Below the pieces are notes generated by a model. The model had not been told where the DNA came from. It made no database searches and was given only the letters and a program-made list of their open reading frames with translations. From Niabella soli DSM 19437 (GTDB lineage Bacteria > Bacteroidota > Bacteroidia > Chitinophagales > Chitinophagaceae): a stretch of 64,000 bases of DNA. Shown here in pieces: positions 52,379 to 62,857 of the stretch. Location of the stretch: positions 434,001 to 498,000 of the forward strand of contig NZ_CP007035.1 of the NCBI RefSeq assembly GCF_000243115.2, read 5' to 3'. Position numbers and translations under genes: made by a program. The number at the start of each line of letters is the position of its first letter. The stretch's first letter is position 1.

Positions 52379-52629
52379 TTAGTAATGTTTTTTAAAGATT
52401 TACTGATGTATTAAATGTATGGACGCCAATCGAAAGCGTTTATACGGGTTAAATATAAAATCATTCTCTCACTAAACCACAAATTTTAAAGAAAATTAAA
52501 GGGCCCACGAAAATAACTGGTGCTCTATTTTTTGCAGACGCCGGCTATACGGGTATAATACCGCTCATACAGGACTTGCAAATAGCTTGTACTTGACAAC
52601 CATCGGCCGGGGTGCTTATTACCCGGGCG

Positions 52630-52692
52630 ATGTACGGAAAGGAACTAAGCTTTGAGCGGGATGACGAGCATGCCTTTCGGGTATTGAGTGGG
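52630..52692 (+). pseudogene. Fragment of the small conserved protein family encoded at 62621
   Basis: Bases 52636-52692 match bases 62729-62785 with 6 differences in 57 by direct comparison. The frame reads GKELSFERDDEHAFRVLSG, as against GKELTFERDDERVFRVLSG in the intact gene. The reading frame starts at an ATG (52630) but lacks the N-terminal 40 residues of the intact protein, and after the match it runs into unrelated hydrophobic text to a stop at 52771. It appears to be a truncated duplicate inside the 620-bp gap between the phosphoesterase and GH106 genes. The rest of that gap (52379-52999) is AT-rich with no further gene I can support. Confidence 0.65.
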
Positions 52693-52999
52693 TTCCAGAT
52701 AATTTCTCAACTTGTCATTTTTTTTGAATGTACATCTTTAATAGTATTAATTTTTGTTATTTTATTTTTTTAAAAATAACTTATATTCACTTTATTATTA
52801 TTTAAAAAAAATTAAAAAATAGTACAGATACGGGACGGTGCGGAATAGTTATGTGGCCGGGCTGGATCAATTTCAGGCAGTATTAATGAGAAAACGATCC
52901 CCGCATTTGCAAGCCATGTCATTCGGTTGTAATTACAAATTTAGTGAAGAAGGTAACGGAGGGCTACCAGGATTTATTATGTACTTTAAATGATTATAT

Positions 53000-57224: not shown

Positions 57225-58337
57225 ATGGAACTTGCTGAGCTGATCATACAAAAAATCAAAAGTACAGGGCCTGTTAATTTTGAAGAATTTATGGAAATGT
57301 GCCTGTATTATCCGGGTCTTGGATATTACACGGCTGCACAGGACCGGATCGGGACTAATGGCGATTTTTATACCAGTGTTACCCTTACGCCTGCTTTTGG
57401 CATCTCTATAGCTAAGCAAATTGAGGAGATGTGGCACCATTTAGGTGAAGGGGTTTTTACCATAGTAGAGTATGGAGGCGGTGGTGGTGACCTGTGCCGG
57501 GCTATATTATCAGCGCTAAAAAACAACAAAGAGTTGTATGAACAACTACAATACCGCATCATTGAAAAATGCGGCATAAAGGACCGGGATAATAACAGGC
57601 GGCTGCATGAAAAAGTGACCTGGCATCATTGCATAGATGAATTTACAATGACAAAGGGCTGTATTTTATCCAATGAATTACTGGATAATTTTCCGGTTCA
57701 CCAGGTGGTCATGGAAGATGAATTAATGGAAGTCTTCGTCGATTTTCAAAATGGCTTTGTTGAAACGACGCGTCCGGCCGGGCAACCACTTATAGATTAT
57801 TTCCTGGAATTAAACATTGAACTTCCAAAGGGCTTTCGCGCAGAGATCAGCCTTCGGGTTATTTCCTGGATACAGGAACTGGCGAATGCAATGAAGCAGG
57901 GATACCTGATCACTATAGATTACGGATATACTTTAGCGGAATTTTATAAACCCCACAGAAGTCGGGGTACGCTGCTGGCGTATTACCAGCATTCCGTTTC
58001 CGATGATCTGTATAACCATATCGGGCAACAGGATATTACCGCGCACGTTAATTTTTCGGCCTTAAGCCATTGGGGCCGTAAAAATGGTTTAACCGATTGT
58101 GGTTTTACTGATCAATGTCATTTTCTTTTATCGCTGGGTGCTCCGGATATTATTAAAAGGATTATGGAGGAGAAAGCAGATGTAGTTACTGCTGCAAGAA
58201 AAGCTGCATTGTTGAACTATACGTTGTTGATGGATATGGGGTACAAATTTAAAGTATTGATCCAGGAAAAGGGCGGGTGCAATAAAGATCTTTGTGGGCT
58301 AAGCGTTTTACGGCCGGATACGAAAAAGCAGGGATGA
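57225..58337 (+). CDS. MidA/NDUFAF7-like SAM-dependent methyltransferase
   Basis: A 370-residue protein of the family that includes human NDUFAF7, which methylates an Arg of respiratory complex I. Text such as INFEEFMEMCLYYPGLGYYTAAQDRIGTNGDFYTSVTLTPAFG is the standard N-terminus. The SAM loop is IVEYGGGGGDLCRAIL, with ILSNELLDNFPVHQVVMED and YLITIDYGYTLAEFYKPHRSRGTLLAYYQH following. Length is normal. The bacterial target is not established. Next to it is the TPP riboswitch, on the same strand but probably a separate transcript. Confidence 0.88.
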   Translation: MELAELIIQKIKSTGPVNFEEFMEMCLYYPGLGYYTAAQDRIGTNGDFYTSVTLTPAFGISIAKQIEEMWHHLGEGVFTIVEYGGGGGDLCRAILSALKNNKELYEQLQYRIIEKCGIKDRDNNRRLHEKVTWHHCIDEFTMTKGCILSNELLDNFPVHQVVMEDELMEVFVDFQNGFVETTRPAGQPLIDYFLELNIELPKGFRAEISLRVISWIQELANAMKQGYLITIDYGYTLAEFYKPHRSRGTLLAYYQHSVSDDLYNHIGQQDITAHVNFSALSHWGRKNGLTDCGFTDQCHFLLSLGAPDIIKRIMEEKADVVTAARKAALLNYTLLMDMGYKFKVLIQEKGGCNKDLCGLSVLRPDTKKQG

Positions 58338-58489
58338 GTTTTTTCAAAATATTTATAGTCGCAAATAATAAGCTTTGAATAAGGGAACAGGATTACACAT
58401 TTCGTACAATAAAGTCCACAAAAAATAATAAGAAATAAGAGGGTGCCCTGCTTTTTATTTGGCATAATTATTTGAACTCTTTTTATAGA

Positions 58490-58580
58490 TTTTCTACCGG
58501 GGTGTTAAAATGTATCGAAAGATATATACTGAGAAAAACCCGCTGAACCTGAACTGGATAATGCCAGCGCAGGAAGAAAA
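58490..58580 (+). ncRNA. TPP riboswitch (THI element)
   Basis: The conserved thi-box text is all present in order: CCGGGGTG (58497-58504), a variable P3 stem with GTATC-GAAA-GATAT, CTGAGA (58529-58534), ACCCGCTGAACCTG, then AACTGGATAATGCCAGCGCAGG. P1 can form from TTTTCT (58490-58495) and AGAAAA (58575-58580). P2 forms from GGGGT and ACCC, P4 from CCTG and CAGG, and P5 from CTGG and CCAG. It matches the E. coli thiM-type consensus in sequence and pairing. A strong hairpin follows (58591-58616). In known cases the aptamer binds thiamine pyrophosphate and turns downstream expression off. Confidence 0.92.
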
Positions 58581-58590
58581 GAAATTTATT

Positions 58591-58616
58591 GTCCCCCGCA
58601 ACGCGGGGGGCTTTTA
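58591..58616 (+). terminator. Intrinsic terminator hairpin following the TPP aptamer
   Basis: CCCCCGC-aac-GCGGGGG is a perfect 7-bp stem (58593-58609), extended by G-C and T-G pairs at its base, and is followed by CTTTTAGTT. It lies 10 bases after the aptamer. The 5' arm CCCCG could pair instead with CGGGG of P2 (58498-58502), a possible antiterminator when ligand is absent (inference). The T-run is short. Confidence 0.65.
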
Positions 58617-58635
58617 GTTAAAAAACCTTGATAAT

Positions 58636-58983
58636 ATGAAAGAACAACCTTTTGAACGAGCAGCCCATGACCTGGTCGGTTATGCGGCGTTAGATCTAAA
58701 ATACGGTATGAACGCATTCCTGGTGGCCGAATTTTTAACGTATAGTCCCGACCGGTTTACGCCGGTAAGTATTAAGATTTCATTTGGAAAAGAAGGCTTT
58801 GTTTTAACACTATATGCGCATGAAAAAGACAAGCCTGCCGTTGCAGATAAAAAGGAATTGCCGGTCAAAAAGTTTAAGAAAGTAATACAACCCGGAACAT
58901 TTGCTGCCTATGTGGCCCATTTTGCAGTGGCGCTGCCCTGCAATGGGTTTAACCTGGAAGCAATGCGGGTAACAAACAAATAA
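58636..58983 (+). CDS. Small unrecognised protein downstream of a TPP riboswitch
   Basis: A 115-residue protein with no family I recognise. It is soluble-looking, with a helix-like start (ERAAHDLVGYAALDLKYGMNAFLVAEFL), beta-like middle (VSIKISFGKEGFVLTLYAHEK) and a Lys-rich segment (KKELPVKKFKKVIQ); no signal peptide is seen. The ATG at 58636 begins 20 bases after the terminator hairpin, so it is the gene controlled by the TPP riboswitch. No thiamine biosynthesis or transport gene lies nearby. Thiamine-linked expression is the only functional clue. A 29-codon ORF follows at 59013. Confidence 0.75.
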   Translation: MKEQPFERAAHDLVGYAALDLKYGMNAFLVAEFLTYSPDRFTPVSIKISFGKEGFVLTLYAHEKDKPAVADKKELPVKKFKKVIQPGTFAAYVAHFAVALPCNGFNLEAMRVTNK

Positions 58984-62501: not shown

Positions 62502-62576
62502 ATGAGAAATTTGCCTATTCTATTTGATATTCTTCTTAATTCAAACATTGTGCCATTAAATTCATTCTTTAAATAG
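62502..62576 (+). CDS. Putative 24-residue leader peptide or micro-ORF
   Basis: ATG 62502 opens 24 codons reading MRNLPILFDILLNSNIV and ending PLNSFFK, with a stop at 62574. It begins 20 bases after the hairpin at 62460-62481 and ends 44 bases before the conserved small protein at 62621. The hairpin-short ORF-gene order resembles a leader arrangement. It has no known family and could be chance. Confidence 0.3.
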   Translation: MRNLPILFDILLNSNIVPLNSFFK

Positions 62577-62620: not shown

Positions 62621-62857
62621 ATGGAGCATTTTTTTGACTTACCGGTATTATATAAAGGGGAGGAGTTGTTGTTAAAAGGCCGTTTAGTGACCTTTGCCTA
62701 TTCTTACAAGTTTTTTGTAGTAGTAAATGGAAAGGAGCTAACCTTTGAGCGCGATGATGAGCGTGTCTTTCGGGTATTGAGTGGGGCAGGAGAAGACGTG
62801 TCAACGATTGACAGGGAGCTGGTACAACAGATCATATCGGCGCTTAATAAAATATAG
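62621..62857 (+). CDS. Small conserved protein of unknown function
   Basis: A 78-residue soluble protein, MEHFFDLPVLYKGEELLLKG followed by RLVTFAYSYKFFVVVNGKELTFERDDERVFRVL and an acidic/helical tail. The pattern suggests a small mixed beta-sheet with a charged loop; no catalytic residues are evident. A fragment of a relative is at 52630-52692, which shows that the family is present more than once in this genome and makes it more likely to be a real gene. Function unknown. Confidence 0.75.
   Translation: MEHFFDLPVLYKGEELLLKGRLVTFAYSYKFFVVVNGKELTFERDDERVFRVLSGAGEDVSTIDRELVQQIISALNKI

Follow-up and report, generated by a model that had tools for sequence, protein, structure and literature searches.

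The TPP aptamer in the window, by which we mean the whole 64,000-nt stretch of Niabella soli DNA analysed here, probably belongs (we would put this at about 60%) to a sigma54-driven, free-standing TPP-aptamer small RNA that sits among stress genes and sometimes also serves as a leader. More tentatively, and at slightly under even odds, we propose that such a TPP-sensing small RNA is widespread in the Chitinophagaceae and some other Bacteroidia, is transcribed by sigma54 and links the TPP level to the stress response in trans. Sequence comparison shows the promoter motif, the fold and its covariation, the terminator, the constant length, the independence from downstream genes and the near-single origin that are described below.

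The element in the window

The features that matter for the argument are these:

57225-58337, forward strand: upstream gene with a Methyltransf_28 domain (PF02636, E 1e-55)
58460-58476, forward strand: sigma54-type -24/-12 promoter, TGGCATAATTATTTGAA, recognised by the conservation of class S columns (18.7 bits)
58486-58487 (+/-3 nt), forward strand: predicted transcription start, placed 25 nt after the first G of the promoter's GG
58488-58592, forward strand: TPP aptamer (RF00059), full-length cmscan match (E 3.2e-10) scoring 63.9 bits where the cut-off is 54.3, and alignable to the family consensus
58591-58615, forward strand: intrinsic terminator, a 21-nt hairpin at 58591-58611 (-16.2 kcal/mol) followed by TTTT at 58612-58615, present in the minimum free energy (MFE) fold of the transcript
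58636-58983, forward strand: open reading frame for a 115-residue protein of no known family, with expression by read-through possible

The first-pass annotation had called a TPP aptamer here and suggested an Infernal search with the Rfam model; that search confirms the call well above the cut-off, and RF00059 is the sole Rfam match at the gathering score in the whole window. The coordinates first given to the aptamer, 58490-58580, were correct to within about 12 nt of the cmscan span, and the terminator said to follow it is there as a strong hairpin with a T run. The same annotation described the element as aptamer, terminator and reading frame, all of which stand; it overlooked the promoter and the membership of a family. 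That promoter ranks first of the six window sites of at least 11 bits, where shuffles average 4.6 such sites, and its 18.7 bits come from a motif whose training set included this very sequence. A second sigma54-type site, TGGCACAATGTTTGAAT, lies on the minus strand at 62555 (16.7 bits), some 560 nt upstream of where a CLC-channel gene on that strand is called to start.

A distinct class of TPP aptamers

Two models, R1 from seven copies of the genus and without the promoter, and R2 from eight copies of other genera with the promoter and without the terminator, were searched over 394 genomes of the family. Reading of the loci reveals two kinds of TPP element, which we call ordinary and class S. 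Class S elements have a TGGCAY-N5-TT promoter whose TGGCAY lies 30-54 nt upstream of the aptamer's GGGG, and they have a terminator close behind the aptamer, whereas ordinary elements lack this promoter and terminator and precede genes that by eye encode TonB receptors, PnuT, ThiM, ThiS/ThiC-like and similar proteins. Class S is present in at least 42 of the 394 genomes, from 23 genera, with 47 R2 rows at 79 bits or more, a score below which the two kinds overlap (ordinary elements reach 78.7 in two cases). Simple rules divide 117 distinct cores into 43 with motif and terminator, three with the motif only, six with the terminator only and 65 with neither; several of the nine mixed cores are misses of the rules while others are not, and the loci were partly selected by the models. 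When TPP loci of the genus were fetched by Rfam alone (n=30), seven had promoter and terminator, 23 had neither and none was mixed.

A scan for the pattern gave named class S members in Flavihumibacter petaseus (Flavihumibacter being a member of the Chitinophagaceae), in Terrimonas pollutisoli and in a bin called Chitinophaga niabensis; eight of the 11 stretches from the scan match R2 and three do not. Outside the family, three of the 29 loci inspected in a class-level sample of 395 genomes are class S (G444, G656, G746), and a locus in G804 (L190) has a terminator together with a TGGTAC-like site. None of the four new loci found at E <=1e-15 in a phylum sample of 247 genomes is class S by eye. 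In a tree built from 64 aptamer cores of class S and 64 others, for which both classes were trimmed equally and four of the 68 class S rows were dropped, two changes of class label suffice, where each of 200 shuffles needs 33 or more; an earlier tree with eight label changes, in which the two classes had been trimmed differently, is superseded. As judged from these cores, class S forms almost a single clade, separate from the ordinary TPP riboswitches, which points to a near-single origin.

Some genomes contain several TPP elements: G034 has loci L061, L151, L152 and L153 with five R1 matches, of which two were read and belong to class S; G053 and G265 each contain as many as three class S copies. 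Among ordinary elements, those at L012, L013, L014 and L159 precede what by eye is a methyltransferase-like gene and then a ThiL-like gene, and in several genomes (L003, L015, L016) an acyl-CoA-dehydrogenase-like gene, also by eye, comes after a TPP-preceded PnuT-like gene.

Fold and promoter of class S

Across 68 distinct class S sequences, 17 of the 20 base pairs show changes in both partners, and 89.5% of cells are paired. Not one of 500 shuffles matches this; the model had guided the alignment, but slid controls drop to 37-63% pairing. CTGAGA is found in 66 of the 68, and both CG columns of J4-5 are 100% conserved. A terminator is detected by a simple rule in 60 of the 68, 9-27 nt after the aptamer, which gives predicted transcripts of 117-171 nt; in MFE folds it forms in all 60, together with P1 in 59. 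Outside the genus of the window the terminator arm CTCCGG recurs across genera and is more alike than termination alone needs, so it might be functional or merely inherited. We infer that class S RNA would bind TPP.

Sigma54 promoters have a -24/-12 consensus of characteristic spacing. In the 65 of 68 distinct class S sequences used for promoter statistics, GG (65/65), A4 (65/65), T11 (63/65) and T12 (60/65) are kept at this spacing, although among R2 hits such conservation is partly a matter of selection, as R2 includes promoter columns. The GC dinucleotide of the -12 element is poorly kept, with G13 in 11/65 and C14 in 23/65, and for this reason we call the promoter sigma54-type and not proven sigma54. 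The 5' end of P1 falls a median of 27 nt after the first G of GG (middle half 25-30, in 65 of 68 rows), which is approximately where a sigma54 transcript starts, so that the closing helix of the RNA seems to lie at its very start. A whole-duplex measure of P1 was set aside because long loops blurred it (of 1300 mismatched controls, 249 were as strong as the median), and its replacement gave 155 of 1300.

The sigma54 gene (PF04552) is present in all 12 genomes tested. Proteins with a sigma54-activator domain occur in 20 of 20 genomes, yet also in 14 of 14 controls, and only high-scoring matches are meaningful; one such putative activator, of 463-466 aa in each of the six genus genomes compared, lies 9-23 kb from the RNA in five genomes and 64 kb from it in the genome of the window. 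Further sigma54-type sites are weakly enriched near class S, where 10 sites of at least 15 bits in 182 kb (one of them an unmasked own promoter) compare with four in 208 kb of ordinary loci. We infer that class S would be transcribed by sigma54 and induced by stress.

Downstream genes and alternative explanations

Of 55 class S copies defined by strict rules, 34 are followed by a gene on their own strand, and 21 face a convergent gene on the opposite strand. Ordinary TPP elements have 62 same-strand and two opposite cases out of 64 (Fisher p 9e-7 for the comparison); both opposite calls in this set look like calling errors, and by eye the set includes a single class S element, L112. The 34:21 split is not different from 1:1 (p 0.10), with related genomes counted as separate in these figures. 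By genus (n=29), 16 have any opposite case, 18 have any same-strand case and five have both. The gene calls are our own and some are wrong, as in G010, which was scored as opposite despite an apparent same-strand DUF6766-like frame; a Pfam domain was found in eight of the 10 opposite-strand genes scanned. Thirteen loci with an imperfect motif or no simple-rule terminator were left out of the strict set, and several of these (L095, L103, L104, L111, L116, L131) are class S by eye. A first neighbour table (43 same, 26 opposite and two with none, of 71) contained ordinary TPP loci and weak calls and was dropped.

The neighbours themselves are varied. Thirty were scanned, and they include Usp, erythromycin esterase-like, DinB, OsmC, DUF892, DUF72, DUF763 and pyrophosphatase proteins, as well as KGG stress repeat, YtxH, DUF2383, SDR, Methyltransf_28, GT9, TetR, MFS and others; many of these families we take to be stress genes, and no thiamine gene is among the scanned neighbours. 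Within the genus of the window, sequence identity is 0.71 over the promoter and 0.81 over the RNA, with both flanks at the shuffled level, and within genus g103 it is 0.61-0.64 upstream and 0.76 over the RNA, falling to the shuffled level after the terminator, such that homology stops at the terminator in both genera tested. Class S, as compared here, is independent of the downstream gene and has no fixed one.

The strongest competing explanation, which we nonetheless consider unlikely, is an ordinary cis riboswitch that has been recruited to various stress genes, in which TPP would favour the terminator and repress the next gene, here that of the 115-residue protein. Aptamer and terminator are indeed adjacent, the gene in the window begins 24 nt 3' of the hairpin, and in 22 of the 55 copies a same-strand gene is no more than 120 nt away, as such a switch would need. 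But the 21 copies with no same-strand next gene are equally conserved, with mean scores of 84.2 bits against 87.7 for the 22 with a close same-strand gene and 87.2 for the 12 with a distant one (p 0.29), and the end of homology at the terminator also speaks against control of what follows. In G011, G015 and G034 the pairing of a CCGGGG with the terminator arm nearly equals the hairpin in strength, so that an antiterminator is possible in these single copies; overall, however, the terminator arm pairs no better with sequence upstream of it than mismatched controls do (-9.63, against -9.71), and a general antiterminator was rejected, as 533 of 900 controls were at or below the observed median.

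A second explanation, to which we give little credence, is that read-through is conditional everywhere: when TPP is scarce, the extended RNA would be an mRNA where a same-strand gene follows and an antisense RNA where the gene is convergent. Convergent genes do end within 25 nt of the terminator in G230 (2 nt), G390 (6 nt), G338 (4 nt), G168 (4 nt) and G122 (22 nt), and AspocR, reported for a Listeria B12 riboswitch, offers a precedent (PMC8079631). Yet the convergent gene varies (Usp, GT9, TetR, erythromycin esterase and others), even within genus g103, and the lack of a general antiterminator counts against this idea too. Least probable is that the aptamer is a variant which recognises a related ligand, for instance a different thiamine phosphate. 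The neighbours are unusual, and in J4-5 the copies of the window's genus have GAA in place of the GAU of the Rfam consensus. Most class S elements outside that genus retain GAU, however, and GAA also occurs in ordinary TonB-type TPP elements elsewhere, for which reasons an altered ligand was rejected as a feature of the class on this basis; the nucleotides taken to be the ligand contacts are nearly invariant in class S.

The 115-residue gene

The small protein was first described as having no recognised family, and neither Pfam nor NCBIfam offers a match for it up to E 1. Its AlphaFold model has a mean pLDDT of 65.5 and matches no PDB structure at E <=0.001 (best E-value 1.2), and on these figures we dropped any assignment of function from fold. 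The gene is found in seven of the 99 genomes searched, all of the same genus (G000, which is the genome of the window, and G005, G006, G009, G010, G011 and G015), and in no other genus among the 99; the six homologues are 41-63% identical over the matched stretches, and that of G015 is split over two frames. Elsewhere in the window, reading frames at 52612-52773 and 62621-62857, both on the forward strand, have a stretch in common (GKELSFERDDEHAFRVLSG / GKELTFERDDERVFRVLSG) and form a two-copy small-protein family; the frame at 62621-62857 has no Pfam match.

The first-pass annotation offered two readings, that the protein is a new member of the thiamine regulon or that the aptamer has a role outside it, and it pointed out that no thiamine gene is near, which agrees with finding none among seven proteins scanned around the reading frame. 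It also asked whether homologues follow TPP riboswitches and named homologues lacking such an element as a refutation, which the comparison bears out in part. Homologues do follow the element in G011 and G015, where the element precedes the gene as it does in the window, whereas in four of the seven genus genomes that have the gene (G005, G006, G009, G010) it has no TPP element, and the same variant aptamer with its terminator lies 20-35 kb away. What follows the displaced element is a gene for a membrane protein, DUF6766 in G006 and by eye the same in G005 and G009; only the start of a DUF6766-type gene is recognisable in G010. Upstream of the RNA, G005, G006, G009, G010, G011 and G015 all have one kind of gene, without a Pfam match. 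The genome of the window differs in having the Methyltransf_28 gene at this place, a domain that also adjoins class S RNA in G371, G102 and G138.

By this comparison the link between aptamer and gene is weak. Because the element is separable from the gene and has no fixed downstream gene across the family, and as four of the six other homologues lack it, its presence here is not evidence that the protein belongs to the thiamine regulon. The other reading, a role of the aptamer outside that regulon, gains support, though not chiefly as a switch of this gene. In G000, G011 and G015 the gene begins within about 50 nt of the terminator, which leaves scant space for a separate promoter. In the window, where the distance is 24 nt, the gene probably depends on read-through, and an effect in cis is possible there.

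A proposed mechanism

The layout of class S, with a sigma54-type promoter, an aptamer from the first nucleotide on and then a terminator, agrees with that of an RNA gene. We propose that, under stress, an enhancer-binding activator fires the sigma54 promoter, with transcription starting at the foot of P1. The RNA would fold as a full TPP aptamer, with an extended P1 to close it, and end about 130 nt on, at its own terminator. The main product would be free RNA whose aptamer senses TPP and whose action lies elsewhere than at the locus that encodes it, perhaps by pairing with something or titrating it according to how much TPP there is. If there is a gene just behind on the same strand, as with the 115-residue gene here, read-through could make the RNA its leader too.

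The genome of the window has no ThiC match (0/1), whereas 13 of 14 controls do, and the species may rely on thiamine salvage; with such a dependence, the TPP level would be a plausible signal. Besides the element in the window, this genome has two TPP elements, which by eye precede TonB-receptor-like and PnuT-like genes.

Comparison with known systems

The known role of TPP aptamers is to switch thiamine genes in cis. Class S resembles the riboswitches of RF00059 in its full aptamer match above the cut-off and in its conserved core. In Bacteroidota, the known TPP riboswitch operons are thiSEGCHF-tenI, OMthi and pnuT-tnr3 (PMC5613172). Compared with the riboswitches described there, class S differs in its sigma54-type promoter and near terminator. 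It also adjoins no thiamine gene at any of the loci inspected, and 21 of 55 copies have no next gene on their own strand. No description of a sigma54-driven or stand-alone TPP-aptamer RNA was found in the literature searched, which largely excluded subscription papers.

The promoter class itself has a counterpart in the same phylum, as the sigma54 motif SM4 of Flavobacterium psychrophilum is of the -24/-12 class and is linked with the quality control of proteins and with stress of the envelope (PMC9723704). The main text of that paper does not use the term TPP, and no TPP-aptamer RNA is mentioned there for the regulon. If our preferred reading of class S as a free-standing, sigma54-driven RNA is true, an old aptamer has been put to small-RNA use in a single lineage by way of a stress-type promoter and its own terminator, and cofactor status would be linked to the sigma54 stress response in soil Bacteroidota. 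It would also mean that RF00059 hits in these bacteria are not necessarily leaders of the next gene.

There are precedents for riboswitches that act in trans. EutX/Rli55 is a B12-riboswitch small RNA whose action in trans frees it from gene orientation, and like class S it holds a riboswitch aptamer within a stand-alone RNA (PMC5821096). The ligand is different, and in class S no second, protein-binding part was seen, homology ending at the proximal terminator in the two genera tested. What class S has in common with stand-alone RNAs of this kind is a promoter of its own (by motif), a terminator and a position independent of genes. SreA, a SAM riboswitch of Listeria, also acts in trans (PMC8079631). 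It sits before its own transporter operon, whereas class S has no fixed downstream gene. In both cases, however, a terminated leader RNA could be a stable product in its own right, and by analogy with SreA it is possible that class S plays a dual role, as a free RNA and, where a gene lies close behind the terminator, as its leader.
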